Shown here: positions 12,374 to 24,393 of the stretch, one piece after another | Numbering within the stretch: the stretch's first letter is position 1 | Layout of the letters: each line of letters begins with the position of its first letter | Position numbers and translations under genes: made by a program | The notes under the pieces: model-generated | Seen by the model: the letters and a program-made list of their open reading frames with translations, nothing else | The model's database searches: none | What the model was told of the DNA's origin: nothing | DNA from: a virus | Reading direction: 5' to 3' (one strand) | Length of the DNA stretch: 24,998 bases | IMG/VR virus record: IMGVR_UViG_3300010392_000670 | Location: 1-24,998 of that record

Positions 12374-12411
12374 TAAAATAATGTAGTGTGTGTAAAAAAA
12401 AGTTAGGACAC

Positions 12412-12439
12412 AAAAAAACCCTCTGGTTGGAGGGTTTTT
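12412..12439. terminator. Bidirectional intrinsic terminator
   Basis: A perfect 10-bp inverted repeat AAAAACCCTC / GAGGGTTTTT (12414-12423 with 12430-12439) has a 6-nt loop. A run of seven A (12412-12418) on the left and five T (12435-12439) on the right mean that transcripts in either direction end in a U-run. Leftward, it closes the early/accessory operon 19 nt after the stop of the secreted-protein gene (12458). Rightward, it can stop read-through from the structural operon ending at 12031. Confidence 0.85.
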
Positions 12440-12457
12440 ATTCATAGTTTAGGGAGT

Positions 12458-13261: not shown

Positions 13262-13933
13262 CTAAAGTAGTTTTAATTGAGAGTTATTACTAAACACTTT
13301 GCTACCACTTAAAATTAGTTTAAAACCAAGTTGAGTAGTAAACCAAGCTGGATGTGTAGCACCAAATAACCATAATTTTTTAGCTAGTACTTGTTTAATA
13401 TTAAGTTTTTTAACTGCTTGTGTAACGCTAGTTTGCGAACCTATACATTTGTGAATATCTGCTATACTATACCATTTTACTTTTTTTATAGTAACAACAC
13501 GAACTGTAAAGCCATTAAATTGCTCTTTAGCAAAAGGCACGTCTCTCACATCAATAAACGTTGAAGGTAAATAGCTAGTGCTATAATAACCTTTTTTACG
13601 TATAGTTGGCAAAACCTCTTGTGTAACCCATTTTCTAAAAACACGAGCTTCAGGTTTGTTGCTTCTCATGATTAAGGCATACAATCCGCTTTCACTAATT
13701 ACTTTAACCTTACGTTTTTGAGTTGTACCATTGGAGCTGGTATAAGAAATACTTACATCAGCTTTTTCATCTTCATCTAGTGTAGATGTAGATACACTTA
13801 CATTTTTTAAAGCTAAAACCTTACAAATGTCTTTAGCAATAAAATAAGGTTCGTTTTTAATCAAGACACTAGATATCTCTTGACTTGTGGCATTAAATTG
13901 AAATGCCATTGGTGTTAAATTTTCTTTGAACAT
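13262..13933 (-). CDS. Bro-N domain antirepressor-like protein
   Basis: I use the ATG at 13933 (MFKENLTPMAFQFN, 223 residues); six more codons are open only from a GTG at 13951. The N-terminal half is a Bro-N domain: 'IKNEPYFIAKDICKVLALKNVSVSTSTLDEDEKA', then VISESGLYALIMRSNKPEA and 'FRKWVTQEVLPTIRKKGYYS', the family's hallmark ending. The C-terminal half (WYSIADIHKCIGSQTSVTQAV onward) resembles a second DNA-binding or KilA/Ant-type C-domain. Bro-N proteins in phages act as antirepressors or DNA-binding regulators. The 120-bp inverted-repeat element at 13972-14091 lies in its leader if transcription comes from upstream, which makes RNA-level control possible. Distance from the main repressor (10 kb) does not rule out an antirepressor role. 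Confidence 0.82.
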   Translation of the reverse strand: MFKENLTPMAFQFNATSQEISSVLIKNEPYFIAKDICKVLALKNVSVSTSTLDEDEKADVSISYTSSNGTTQKRKVKVISESGLYALIMRSNKPEARVFRKWVTQEVLPTIRKKGYYSTSYLPSTFIDVRDVPFAKEQFNGFTVRVVTIKKVKWYSIADIHKCIGSQTSVTQAVKKLNIKQVLAKKLWLFGATHPAWFTTQLGFKLILSGSKVFSNNSQLKLL

Positions 13934-13966
13934 ATTGAAAATATTATACACGAAACCCTCACTTTA

Positions 13967-14096
13967 GATGTGTTCAAACAAGTACGAGACTTGAATTATC
14001 CAGCCTTTCGGTTTAAACTGGTTCATCTTGGCGAGGATTTCGCTATCGTTAAATAAAAATTTCGAGATTGCTCTCGTACAATTGTTTGAACGATGT
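13967..14096. repeat. 120-bp inverted-repeat element with 5-bp flanking direct repeats (MITE-like or structured RNA)
   Basis: Left arm GTTCAAACAA GTACGAGA (13972-13989) and right arm TCTCGTAC AA TTGTTTGAAC (14072-14091) are perfectly complementary over 18 bp, apart from a 2-nt bulge. The pentamer GATGT flanks the element directly on both sides (13967-13971 and 14092-14096), as a target-site duplication would. Inside, the minus-strand RNA can form CGAGA-GCAA-UCUCG followed by AAAUUUUUAUUU, which competes with the outer stem for the same bases. It can also form CCAG...CCGAAAGG CUGG and GCGA-AAUCC-UCGC. The core is richer in G+C than its surroundings. A frame is open through the element on the minus strand but has no start except an ATG at 14026 (20 codons), so it is not called a gene. 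Confidence 0.65.
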
Positions 14097-14112
14097 AAAT
14101 ATACAATATTTT

Positions 14113-20115: not shown

Positions 20116-20500
20116 TTGTAACTTCTTTTATAAGTTGACCAATCATTGCAGCAAAACTCTTTTGGTAGAGGTCTGAGTTAATATCAAACTCTACACCTTT
20201 TGGGTTATGTCTTAATCTGTACACCACCTCAGTAATGCTTGGGTTTTTTTTGTAGGCTTCTAAAAAAGCGATATCTCGTTTCATCCAATGGTTAATCCAC
20301 CAGCTCCAAAACACTTTTTGGTAAACGAGCTGTTGTGCCATAATGCAGTCTGTACCAAACTCATTAACCAGATATCTGTAACCCATTTCTTCCTGATACT
20401 CGGCATACTGCAAGTCAGTCCATCCTAAAATGCACTGAATACGCTCTTTTACAGTTTTGTTTTCTAACTGAATGGTTTTGATGTGAGTGGCTGTTTTCAT
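20108..20500 (-). CDS. Hypothetical early protein between MuB and the DnaA-like gene
   Basis: A 130-residue protein with a notable aromatic core: ILGWTDLQYAEYQEEMGYRYL, then QQLVYQKVFWSWWINHWMKRD. It is predicted helical, with no signal peptide. Both ends overlap neighbours (4 nt with MuB, 8 nt with the DnaA-like gene), so it is translated as part of a tight cassette. No family is recognised; the tryptophan-rich helix suggests a protein-protein contact surface. Confidence 0.55.
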   Translation of the reverse strand: MKTATHIKTIQLENKTVKERIQCILGWTDLQYAEYQEEMGYRYLVNEFGTDCIMAQQLVYQKVFWSWWINHWMKRDIAFLEAYKKNPSITEVVYRLRHNPKGVEFDINSDLYQKSFAAMIGQLIKEVTNG

Positions 20501-21369
20501 GCTGTTTGGGTTTTTAAGGTTGCATGTACCAAGCGTTTTACTGAGCGTAAATCTCCTTCGCTCTTGTTATAGATTTCTGTAATGGTTAACTCATCAACCA
20601 CTTTATTGGCTTTGCAAATTGCAGCTATATCACTTCTGGATGGTTTAGGAACTTCTAAGAAACTGCGACCAATACGTGAGTAAATTTCTTGGTAGCCTTT
20701 TTTGTTTTTACGCACACCATCATCAATACGTTTTTTTAAGTATGGTGTTGCCATAATGATAAGGCCACACTTTCCTTTTAAAGCGTTGTAAATAGAAATG
20801 ATGAAGTACAACACACGATCATTAAGCTTGTCTGCCTCATCAATAATAATTAGTGGTGCATCGAGCTTGCGTAAGGTTTTAATAATTTCACTCATCATGC
20901 TTGAGAGTGTTCCTGTGTGACCACTTTTGCCAATAAGTCTTAACAGCTCTTCAAGGAAATCTCTTGAGGTGAAATACTCGTTGCTTTCAATAGTAAACAC
21001 ATTCTCATGGTTGTTTTGCTCTGTGGTTTGCGTTTTACCATAGCCTGTGTTACCAATTATACCATAGGTGTTTGAGTACAAACGTGCATCTGTAAAGAGT
21101 TGGTTAAGGTACTTGTAACCTCTAGTTTCAACAATTTGCCACTCTGTGTTACTGCTTACTTGTTTTTGAATGTTACGCCAAGCTTCATCACTTAAAACTT
21201 CCCATCGTTCGTTAAAAATTTGGCTGATGTAGCTATTGCTTACACCTTTAAGAATTTTACTTGCTTTGTTTGCTGATCCTCCAGCAATAGTTTCGACATA
21301 GTGTCGTAACTCTTTAGCAATTTGCTTTTTTTCTGGTTCAGAAATTTGTTGTTTTGTCTCTGTTATCAT
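20497..21369 (-). CDS. MuB-like AAA+ ATPase, target-DNA activator
   Basis: A 290-residue protein with the MuB plan. Residues about 10-75 form an N-terminal HTH (VETIAGGSANKASKILKGVS; NSYISQIFNERW) as in MuB. Walker A is GNTGYGKT (106-113), Walker B LIIIDEAD (173-180), sensor 1 IIMATPY (204-210), an arginine-rich segment SRIGRSF (231-237), and a sensor-2-like GDLRSVKRL (272-280). MuB coats target DNA as a filament, brings it to the transposase, activates strand transfer and keeps insertion away from the phage's own DNA. It lies next to MuA, after a short gap with a hairpin that faces rightward. Confidence 0.9.
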   Translation of the reverse strand: MITETKQQISEPEKKQIAKELRHYVETIAGGSANKASKILKGVSNSYISQIFNERWEVLSDEAWRNIQKQVSSNTEWQIVETRGYKYLNQLFTDARLYSNTYGIIGNTGYGKTQTTEQNNHENVFTIESNEYFTSRDFLEELLRLIGKSGHTGTLSSMMSEIIKTLRKLDAPLIIIDEADKLNDRVLYFIISIYNALKGKCGLIIMATPYLKKRIDDGVRKNKKGYQEIYSRIGRSFLEVPKPSRSDIAAICKANKVVDELTITEIYNKSEGDLRSVKRLVHATLKTQTA

Positions 21370-21402: not shown

Positions 21403-21430
21403 AAGTGGCTGCTCATCCAGCCACTTTTTT
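21403..21430 (+). terminator. Intrinsic terminator facing rightward, between MuA and MuB
   Basis: A perfect 9-bp stem AAGTGGCTG / CAGCCACTT (21403-21411 with 21418-21426) has a 6-nt loop and runs into TTTTTT (21425-21430) on the plus strand. In the leftward direction, in which all neighbours are transcribed, no T-run follows. It would stop antisense RNA coming from the left, or act as an mRNA hairpin in the gap between the MuA stop (21429) and the MuB start (21369). Confidence 0.65.
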
Positions 21431-23414
21431 ATTTATTAAGCATGTCTGCATAAATGTCTATATCATCATCATCTGAAACCGTTTCAGATATGGTTTGGTG
21501 GCTTGCTATTAATTTGTGATCTGGATGTGAAATTTCTTTTGTTAATACTCCAGCTTGTATTCTGCTTTCAGCATCAATTTTAGCACGTTCAAGGGTTGAT
21601 TTTCTGCTATCAATAAGGTGACGCATTTTAGGAAGCAGTGTTTTCTTTTCGCTTAGTAAATTGTTGATGCGCTCTCTGTCTCCAGGCTCATAATCTGCAA
21701 TAGCACTTGGTAACAGTTTGTACTCATTGGCTAAAAAGCGTAAGCCTTTACCATCTGTAACCAATACTGTGCTTAAATCTGCTTCGTCATAAATAACTTG
21801 CACCTTTTTACCAGCATGTTTAAAAATGGTGGTTTGTGTAAGCTCGTAAGTGCGAGTTTTACCAAGTAATGTTGGCGTGAGGCCTTTAGATTCTATAGTG
21901 TTAAGATGTGTGTGACGTTTGCCGAAAATTTGTAAGCGCATTTCTTCAGTAAGTAATCTTTGCTGTGATTTTTCAGACTCCCAAAATGCAGTGAGCCATT
22001 CCTGTTGACGTGTTGCCTCACTACCTTTTTGCTTGGTTTGGCGCATGGCATTGATAAATGCAGCTACTTGGCTTTCACATTCTGTTATATCAGGGAAATA
22101 AGCTGGTTTTAGTGTGTCTGGATTAAGTTTTTGCTTAGCAGTAATGTTGTGGCCACTGTAATTACTAGGAAATGCTTTTTTAAGAACTTCATGCCAAACA
22201 GCACCAAAACTGCGCTCAATGTATTTGGTTTGCGAGTTTTTAAGTCCAGCTGGTGTTGAAATTGCCATACTGTTGTAAAAGGCCTCTAATTCTGTGGTGT
22301 TTTTGCCTGAAATTCCCCATCTATCAGTTTGAAGCTGTTGCCAGCAATAAGACGCTCCTGTAAGTTGCATTACGTGCCTGTTGGCATTACGATACGCTTC
22401 TTTAATAAGTTCTTTAGTTACAGTATCACCAATGGCATAACCTAAAATGTAATCGTTAAAGGCATCAATAACCACGTACACCATTGGTCTGTACCAATCG
22501 TTACCAGGAGCTTTAAAATAAACATCTAGTACGTTATCATCTGAGTTAACCAATAGTAAAGGTGAAGATGGACGTTTACGCTTACCTTGTTTAGATAACT
22601 TGGTATATGTTTTACTCATACCTTCACGCTCCAGGATAAGCTCATTGTGCCATTTTTTACGCCAATAGCCAACAGCTTCAGGAGTGATTGGTTGCAGATC
22701 ATTATTAACAGCCCATTTGTTATACTCTAAGGCTATGGTAGTATCAGCATGTTTGTTGCGAAGTGTGAGCAACTCTTTAAGTAAAGCTTCAGCAACTTCA
22801 CCAACTATTTTTTTACTGTAATCGTTTCCAAATTTGTGAGTTTCAATAAGGTACTCATAGCCTTCAGCTTGGTAGCCTTTAATTTTTTCTTTAAGGCGTT
22901 TGTATGAATAAGGTAGATTTACCTTTTTGGTTTTCATCAGTGCAATAGAAGCTTCCCAAAACTTACCAACACTAATGTTAAGTTCACTTTTTAAAGTGGT
23001 TTTATCATTGGTTAGCCTTATTAACATATTAAGCCAACTTGCAGCTTCAGTATAACGCTGCACGTAGTTGATCTGCTTTTTACCATCAATGTTATAGTTT
23101 GAGCTTGGTAATTTTAAGCCATTTGGAAGGGTAAAATTTTGGTAAAAATGCTCTGCATTAGTATCTAGCTTAACAGCTTGCAGTATTGGTTGGCGTGATG
23201 CGTAGTTGTAAGGACAACCATAATAGTTTTGTACGCCTTCTTTAAATTTGGCTGGTAGTGAGTTATAAGAAACATAAACTTTACGACCATTGCCACCAGA
23301 CCCAATTGCTTTAATGTTATTGTTTTCTTTATGATGTCTATAACTATCTTTACTCATTACCATTGGTACGAGTTCGTTATATTCTAAACATAAAGAGCCA
23401 TCTAGGTACACCAT
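21429..23414 (-). CDS. MuA-like DDE transposase
   Basis: A 661-residue transposase, close to MuA in length (663). The N-terminal 65 residues (YNELVPMVMSKDSYRHHKENN; GRKVYVSYNSLPAKFKEGVQ) match the Mu-type HTH/wHTH region that binds the ends or enhancer. The catalytic RNase H fold aligns with MuA: D292 in VNSDDNVLDVYF (MuA 'INGD'), D364 in LQTDRWG (MuA 'ITID'), E400 in KYIERSFGAVW (MuA 'PVERAFG'), with DWYRPMVYVVIDAFNDYILGYAIG between. A C-terminal domain with Lys/Arg-rich helices (about 570-650) is the likely MuB contact. It cuts and joins phage ends to target DNA during lysogenisation and replicative transposition. Confidence 0.93.
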   Translation of the reverse strand: MVYLDGSLCLEYNELVPMVMSKDSYRHHKENNNIKAIGSGGNGRKVYVSYNSLPAKFKEGVQNYYGCPYNYASRQPILQAVKLDTNAEHFYQNFTLPNGLKLPSSNYNIDGKKQINYVQRYTEAASWLNMLIRLTNDKTTLKSELNISVGKFWEASIALMKTKKVNLPYSYKRLKEKIKGYQAEGYEYLIETHKFGNDYSKKIVGEVAEALLKELLTLRNKHADTTIALEYNKWAVNNDLQPITPEAVGYWRKKWHNELILEREGMSKTYTKLSKQGKRKRPSSPLLLVNSDDNVLDVYFKAPGNDWYRPMVYVVIDAFNDYILGYAIGDTVTKELIKEAYRNANRHVMQLTGASYCWQQLQTDRWGISGKNTTELEAFYNSMAISTPAGLKNSQTKYIERSFGAVWHEVLKKAFPSNYSGHNITAKQKLNPDTLKPAYFPDITECESQVAAFINAMRQTKQKGSEATRQQEWLTAFWESEKSQQRLLTEEMRLQIFGKRHTHLNTIESKGLTPTLLGKTRTYELTQTTIFKHAGKKVQVIYDEADLSTVLVTDGKGLRFLANEYKLLPSAIADYEPGDRERINNLLSEKKTLLPKMRHLIDSRKSTLERAKIDAESRIQAGVLTKEISHPDHKLIASHQTISETVSDDDDIDIYADMLNK

Positions 23415-23718: not shown

Positions 23719-24393
23719 ATGACTGGCGATTATGTAAGGAATGCGCTGCTTAACAACGGTTATGTATTGGCTGATGTAGCCAATGAAATGGGTATTACAC
23801 CTCAAGATTTAAACAGTAAACTAAAAACTAACGATATAAAAGTTGGTGTTTTGGAGAAAATTGCTGAAGCGATAAACAAAAATGTTTATTTCTTTTTTCC
23901 TGATGAGAATAACTATGTTAATGATGGAAGTGCTGTTTATAAATTAAGGACAGACAGAATAATTAATGGAGATCAAAAAATCCCTTTATATGACATTGAA
24001 GCTGTGGCTGGACTAGTACCATTATTCCAGGACACCACAACAAAAAATCCAATAGATCATATATCAATACCACAGCTTCCAAAATGTGATGGAGCTGTAA
24101 AAATTACTGGAGACAGTATGTACCCATTATTAAAAAGTGGTGATATCATTATGTATAAGCAAGTAACAGATATTGCTAATGATATTTTTTGGGGTGAAAT
24201 GTATTTATTATCTGTGGCCACAGAAGATGAAGAGTATATAACAGTTAAGTACATTCAAAAAAGTGATAAAGGTGAGGATTGGGTAAAACTTGTATCACAA
24301 AATCAACATCACCAGGAGAGACATATACAGCGATCCAGAATTACTGCTTTAGCATTAGTTAAAGCTAGTATTCGTATTAATTCAATGAGTTAA
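23719..24393 (+). CDS. LexA/CI-type prophage repressor with S24 peptidase domain
   Basis: A 224-residue protein. Residues 1-60 form an HTH (VRNALLNNGYVLADVANEMGITPQDLNSKL...). The C-terminal domain is of the S24 type: catalytic Ser133 in ITGDSMYPLLKSGDIIMYK and Lys177 in EYITVKYIQK. The cleavage site is probably Ala97-Gly98 in EAVAGLV. All parts needed for RecA-stimulated self-cleavage are present, so this lysogen may be SOS-inducible, unlike Mu itself, whose repressor is not of this type. It is divergent from the early operon with two operators between, and is the only rightward gene at this end. Confidence 0.88.
   Translation: MTGDYVRNALLNNGYVLADVANEMGITPQDLNSKLKTNDIKVGVLEKIAEAINKNVYFFFPDENNYVNDGSAVYKLRTDRIINGDQKIPLYDIEAVAGLVPLFQDTTTKNPIDHISIPQLPKCDGAVKITGDSMYPLLKSGDIIMYKQVTDIANDIFWGEMYLLSVATEDEEYITVKYIQKSDKGEDWVKLVSQNQHHQERHIQRSRITALALVKASIRINSMS

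Follow-up and report, generated by a model that had tools for sequence, protein, structure and literature searches.

The region upstream of the Bro-N gene in the Mu-like phage analyzed here is, with a probability of about 90%, a c4-type antisense-RNA leader controlling a phage antirepressor. The system is ordinary in kind: it is a clear, divergent variant of the c4 type, with targets mapped by covariation, and it is not a mobile element. Three lines of evidence carry this reading: (i) the anatomy of the leader; (ii) its homology to the Rfam family c4-2; and (iii) the complementarity of three sites, namely a first target (T1), an antisense arm and a second target (T2). The finding extends the c4 mechanism of phage P1 to probable Bacteroidota phages, with the target shifted onto the start codon, and the three-site rule offers a means of searching for such systems and of forecasting which prophages should have immunity in common.

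Anatomy of the antirepressor leader

The window, by which we mean the whole stretch of DNA that was analyzed, is a 24,998-bp virus record encoding a Mu-like phage. A DUF3164 protein is encoded in the same record, together with the following genes.

20497–21369, minus strand: AAA/TniB-like protein
21429–23414, minus strand: MuA-like transposase
23719–24393, plus strand: S24-type repressor
13262–13933, minus strand (read leftward): Bro-N antirepressor gene, 223 aa counted from the ATG

The Bro-N gene was positive for Pfam Bro-N (E 4e-26, using the longer GTG frame as the query) and for the PHROG anti-repressor Ant (E 2e-40); its start codon is likely the ATG at 13933–13931 rather than the GTG at 13951. 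The hosts of these phages are probably Bacteroidota, as the type of promoter, the relatives of the transposase and the matches to Flavobacterium phages indicate. A strong hairpin on the minus strand at 12407–12441 (AAAAACCCTCCAACCAGAGGGTTTTTTT) is probably a terminator 3' of the antirepressor operon.

The leader itself comprises the following features, all on the minus strand.

14096–14103, minus strand: predicted −7 promoter box of the antirepressor leader, TATATTTA (TAnnTTTG type), recognized by sequence
14072–14091, minus strand: T1 target (a1/b1-like), GUUCAAACAAUUGUACGAGA, complementary to 13972–13989; its first base is the putative +1 (14091)
14063–14076, minus strand: small hairpin CGAGA-GCAA-UCUCG, which shares bases with the 3' end of T1 and has a U-rich stretch behind it at 14051–14062
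13950–14043, minus strand: c4-2-like RNA domain, with an outer stem (14031–14043/13950–13962) and an inner stem (14024–14027/13967–13970)
14000–14021, minus strand: hairpin 1 of the c4 domain (CCAG...GAAA...CUGG), from the Rfam alignment
13972–13993, minus strand: hairpin 2, with the loop UCUCGUA (b'-like) and the 3' antisense arm CUUGUUUGAAC (a'-like)
13963–13971, minus strand: conserved core ACAYCUAAA, 3' of the antisense arm, near-invariant in alignment A1
13925–13932, minus strand: T2 target (a2-like), UGUUCAAA, which takes in the last two bases (UG) of the AUG start codon at 13933–13931

The 3' arm of hairpin 2 is thus complementary both to T1 and to the start codon of the antirepressor gene (T2). 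Since the TAnnTTTG consensus occupies positions −12 to −5 (PMC9723704), the sequence of the box would place the start of the RNA at about 14091. T1 begins at approximately this implied +1, 4 nt after the box, and makes up the first 20 nt of the predicted RNA, complementing hairpin 2 in its loop and 3' arm. The near-invariance of the core in alignment A1 arises partly by construction, as the core formed part of our search patterns; it is also kept, however, in a close relative of the window (L016) and in Flavobacterium phage 6H, both of which were found by other routes.

Homology to c4-2 RNAs and covariation of the three sites

Rfam c4-2 (RF02944, clan CL00128) aligns over its full length, including the stem, the GAAA hairpin and the CCUAAA core, to 13953–14038 on the minus strand (23.7 bits, E 0.006), but this score lies below the gathering threshold of the family (41 bits). 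Other Rfam matches in the window (Bacteroidales-1, Rev13) were far below threshold and were discarded. Despite the sub-threshold score, homology of the window to c4-2 is supported by two further results. First, blastn matched Flavobacterium phage 6H and its relatives, in the 3' part only; phage 6H carries a c4-2 RNA that scores above threshold (49.4 bits) and has the same downstream context as the window, GAGGGTTTCGTGTATA followed by a start codon. Second, a model built from 15 related loci with the window left out (R1) finds the window with 59.7 bits and an E-value of 3.5e-16, the E-values of this tool being rough. A scan of 15 further loci with Rfam c4-2, using fast filters, gave no match that exceeded the threshold.

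The sequence-only reading had likened the element to structured control RNAs of the c4 type upstream of phage antirepressors and had suggested covariation analysis as a check. RNAalifold, applied to the 15 loci without the window, yielded a double stem of 14 pairs, ten of which show compensatory changes on both sides, and this, together with the homology and the three-way covariation described below, bears the comparison out. The leftward RNA of the window folds with −34.4 kcal/mol (z −4.58), and none of 200 shuffled sequences was as stable.

Related loci were sought in IMG/VR with patterns that combined the CACAYCTAAAG core with a GGTG/GATG stem and a GAAA loop but included neither T1 nor T2. 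Many of the matches were chance occurrences inside genes, and these were separated from true loci by the energy of the outer stem, not by T1 or T2. Together with the loci found by other routes, 16 have a strong outer stem, namely the window, phages 6H (L007) and 2A (L022), L009, L010, L016 (found again as L084), L029, L034, L037, L038, L065, L083, L109, L128, L132 and L163. In all 16, the complement of the arm is found twice: T1 lies roughly 110 nt upstream, and T2 stands at the start codon that follows. Twelve different seven-base arms occur among them, and arm, T1 and T2 change together. Phage FPSV-D15 (L023) fits this rule as well, with an inner stem of GTTG/CAAC in place of GGTG/CACC.

The register of the sites is equally regular. 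A box of the TAnnTTTG type stands 4–5 nt 5' of T1 in 16/16 loci, with the longer spacing of 5 nt for L034, L037 and L065. L038 is complementary from the same place onward, but its longest exact run begins at +10. T2 starts at the U of the AUG, one base past the A, in every locus. Summed over the 16 loci, pairing of T1 with its own arm amounts to −427 kcal/mol, as opposed to a mean of −196 kcal/mol when arms are permuted, and the corresponding values for T2 are −191 and −132 kcal/mol. In neither case did any of 20,000 permutations equal the observed sum, which is not to be read as a strict probability, since some of the 6H-type loci are closely related (although their arms differ). The T2 match, taken singly, is short: the 8 nt in the window are not beyond chance within the window alone, the match in L016 is 7 nt, and the window's T2 pairs with its own arm at −9.6, a value that the arms of some other loci equal or better. 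A blind scan for such triples recovered the c4 loci in the correct register, while its other matches were scattered; shuffled sequence gave about 13 matches per pass.

The inverted repeat and its GATGT flanks

The arms of an inverted repeat at 13972–13989 (GTTCAAACAAGTACGAGA) and 14072–14091 (TCTCGTACAATTGTTTGAAC) form 18 complementary pairs with a 2-nt bulge, and GATGT stands at both 13967–13971 and 14092–14096. Arms, spacing and flanks were thus correctly described in the sequence-only reading, which took them for a miniature inverted-repeat transposable element (MITE), that is, a non-autonomous element with 18-bp terminal repeats and a 5-bp target duplication inserted in the antirepressor leader. 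The exact flanking by GATGT is what speaks for such an element. The supposed terminal repeat, however, is T1 plus the antisense arm. Both GATGT copies read ACATC on the minus strand; the left one (14092–14096) covers the end of the promoter box and its spacer (TATATTTACATC), and the right one (13967–13971) is part of the conserved c4 core CACAYCTAAA.

The decisive comparison is with the relatives, which carry the feature at the same place with unrelated arms and without a duplication. A search with the MuA-like transposase revealed one close relative, L016, whose transposase is 72% identical to that of the window and whose Bro-N protein is 68% identical; this locus was therefore located by way of the transposase, not the RNA. 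Its orthologous leader has the same layout but wholly different arms, with TGACCAACCGTTTTTGGA in place of the window's arm, a matching antisense and ATGACCAA at the start. Equal 5-mers on both flanks occur in only one of the 16 leaders, that of the window. The 120-bp unit, for which a search for further copies had been suggested, is present once in the 25-kb record; an exact DNA pattern for the arms had no match in IMG/VR, and a search of a plasmid collection was likewise without a match. A search of IMG/VR for the same arm showed that GTTTGAAC of the window is shared by L029 only. The marks expected of a MITE, namely arms conserved between copies, a target duplication, and empty sites or further copies, are not borne out. 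The L016 and L029 loci rule out the identity as a MITE, to which we now give practically no credence.

That the repressor or antirepressor instead uses the inverted repeat as a DNA operator is scarcely more credible. The repeat does adjoin the promoter, but its arms lie some 80 bp apart, one of them inside the transcribed domain; moreover, the arm sequence is found again at the start codon, and the RNA stems carry compensatory changes.

Known antisense systems, proposed mechanism and regulated genes

In phages P1 and P7, the c4 antisense RNA, a switch that contributes to the dormancy of P1, was reportedly described by Citron and Schuster in 1990. The annotation of P1 (NC_005856) gives TTGACAG as the sequence of both a1 and a2, and CTGTCAA occurs within the c4 RNA; the match of b2 to the c4 loop is exact, that of b1 extends over 7/8 bases, and a1b1 is labelled 'putative'. 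The window shares with P1/P7 c4 the order promoter, a1b1, c4, a2 and coding region, an antisense hairpin whose loop and 3' segment complement both target sites, and the probable control of an antirepressor. It differs in that the a1 counterpart T1 starts near +1 and the a2 counterpart T2 lies across the start codon of the gene under control, whereas the P1 sites lie upstream of icd. Moreover, an icd frame is absent, and the pairing also involves the stem of hairpin 2. As in c4-type systems, the structured RNA lies upstream of the antirepressor gene and is co-directional with it, and it is antisense to an upstream target (a1b1) and to a translation-start target (a2), a layout that the P1 control reproduces. 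At T2, only the a2-like part was seen and not a second part resembling the b2 annotated downstream in P1, and we therefore file the system as a variant working like c4 rather than as P1-type c4. The role of the first target becomes testable, since all 16 loci possess this target and in each it is stronger than the second. We found no published account of T1 or T2 in c4-2 in the literature consulted, which consisted mostly of papers available without subscription. By function, the system may also be likened to the sar RNA of P22, a phage antisense RNA that blocks translation of an antirepressor (review PMC12197685); in the window, however, the antisense is encoded upstream, on one RNA together with its targets.

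By analogy with P1 c4, and on the strength of the fold energies, we propose that the leftward promoter would give rise to a single RNA carrying T1 at its 5' end, the c4-2-like domain and the Bro-N reading frame. The c4 domain, either freed or still attached, would expose the 3' arm of hairpin 2 as antisense, and this arm would pair with the antirepressor start codon (T2), blocking translation and contributing to the silence of the prophage. Such a translation block is the likely mechanism, and for phages of hosts without Shine-Dalgarno sequences, as described for Bacteroidota (PMC6847099), a target at the start codon would be a sensible adaptation. The arm is predicted to pair with T1 even better than with T2. 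In cis, this pairing would hide the antisense arm; in trans, T1 would pair with c4 RNA from other transcripts, and a cis/trans switch operating through T1 is plausible on the same grounds.

The fold energies agree with such a switch. Two mutually exclusive folds had been proposed for the leftward RNA, an outer stem (the T1–arm pairing in cis) and the small hairpin; both are present, but the lowest-energy fold of the full leader is the c4 fold (−41.8 kcal/mol) and not the outer stem (−36.6 kcal/mol). In all 16 leaders, the c4 and T1–arm folds differ by no more than about 5.5 kcal/mol, either one being ahead, and this near-equality suggests a switch. The same energies would also fit a leader acting in cis only, in which T1 merely folds back on the antisense arm and no RNA acts in trans. 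We consider this improbable, as by itself it leaves the covariation between T2 and the arm at the start codon unexplained, and P1 c4 works in trans (PMC8546580).

A further question concerns the small hairpin, which is followed by AAAUUUUUAU, passes a simple terminator scan and had been read as half of a terminator/antiterminator switch. For most loci, a hairpin is predicted between T1 and the c4 domain, at about +14 to +39; its loop is often of the GNRA type (GCAA or GAAA) and it often shares bases with the 3' end of T1, so that a second, exclusive hairpin does recur among the relatives; a U-run close behind it, however, is confined to few loci, including the window, L034 and L037 (1–3 nt after the hairpin). 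An attenuator might nevertheless be envisaged, in which transcription would stop at the hairpin (14063–14076) except when c4 RNA, by pairing with T1, opens this structure. Consistent with this, the hairpin recurs at this place and, as it overlaps the 3' end of T1, excludes T1 pairing; c4 would then boost its own synthesis, the short RNA left by termination would soak up c4 as a sponge, and both effects could add to the translation block. Given that most loci have no U-run directly after the hairpin and that several of the stems comprise only three pairs, we regard attenuation as unlikely.

Somewhat less doubtful, but still speculative, is an elaboration of the proposed antisense mechanism into a bistable RNA memory. 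T1 at the 5' end would mask the arm in cis, so that a new infection makes antirepressor, while in a lysogen c4 RNA would bind T1 and free the arms of new transcripts, resulting in self-sustained silencing; the private arm/T1/T2 code of each phage would then set its immunity group.

The genes placed under this control differ among the phages. Seven of the regulated genes have a Bro-N/AntA domain above the Pfam cut-off (window, L016, L029, L034, L037, L038 and L128), and L065 and L083 gave weaker matches. In several 6H-type phages, the regulated gene encodes a small protein of unknown function. In phage 6H itself (L007, 5899–6003, minus strand), the frame at T2 is no longer than 34 aa and runs into the beginning of the annotated tail protein; in phages 2A and FPSV-D15, a gene of about 103 aa stands at this place. 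A search of genome contigs found only a Bro-N protein of Azospirillum. One additional locus, L002, was found by its Bro-N protein (47%) and has a T1/arm/T2 triple (TGACAACAT / ATGTTGTCA / ATGACAACAT) at 2780–2930, 5' of the Bro-N gene; its RNA core is recognized by neither Rfam c4-2 nor model R1.

Finally, a second, weaker c4-like unit accompanies the main one within the records of two phages, in L190 (about 1412–1512; G014:C1:13111–13211) and in L037 (9950–10150, minus strand, overlapping G015:C1:24497–24601), the latter with a T1-like copy and no clear T2; these second units are perhaps tandem or decaying immunity modules. On the minus strands of L044 and L069, repeated TGACAAAA / TTTTGTCA triples occur at two successive start codons, in an arrangement unlike the c4 layout.
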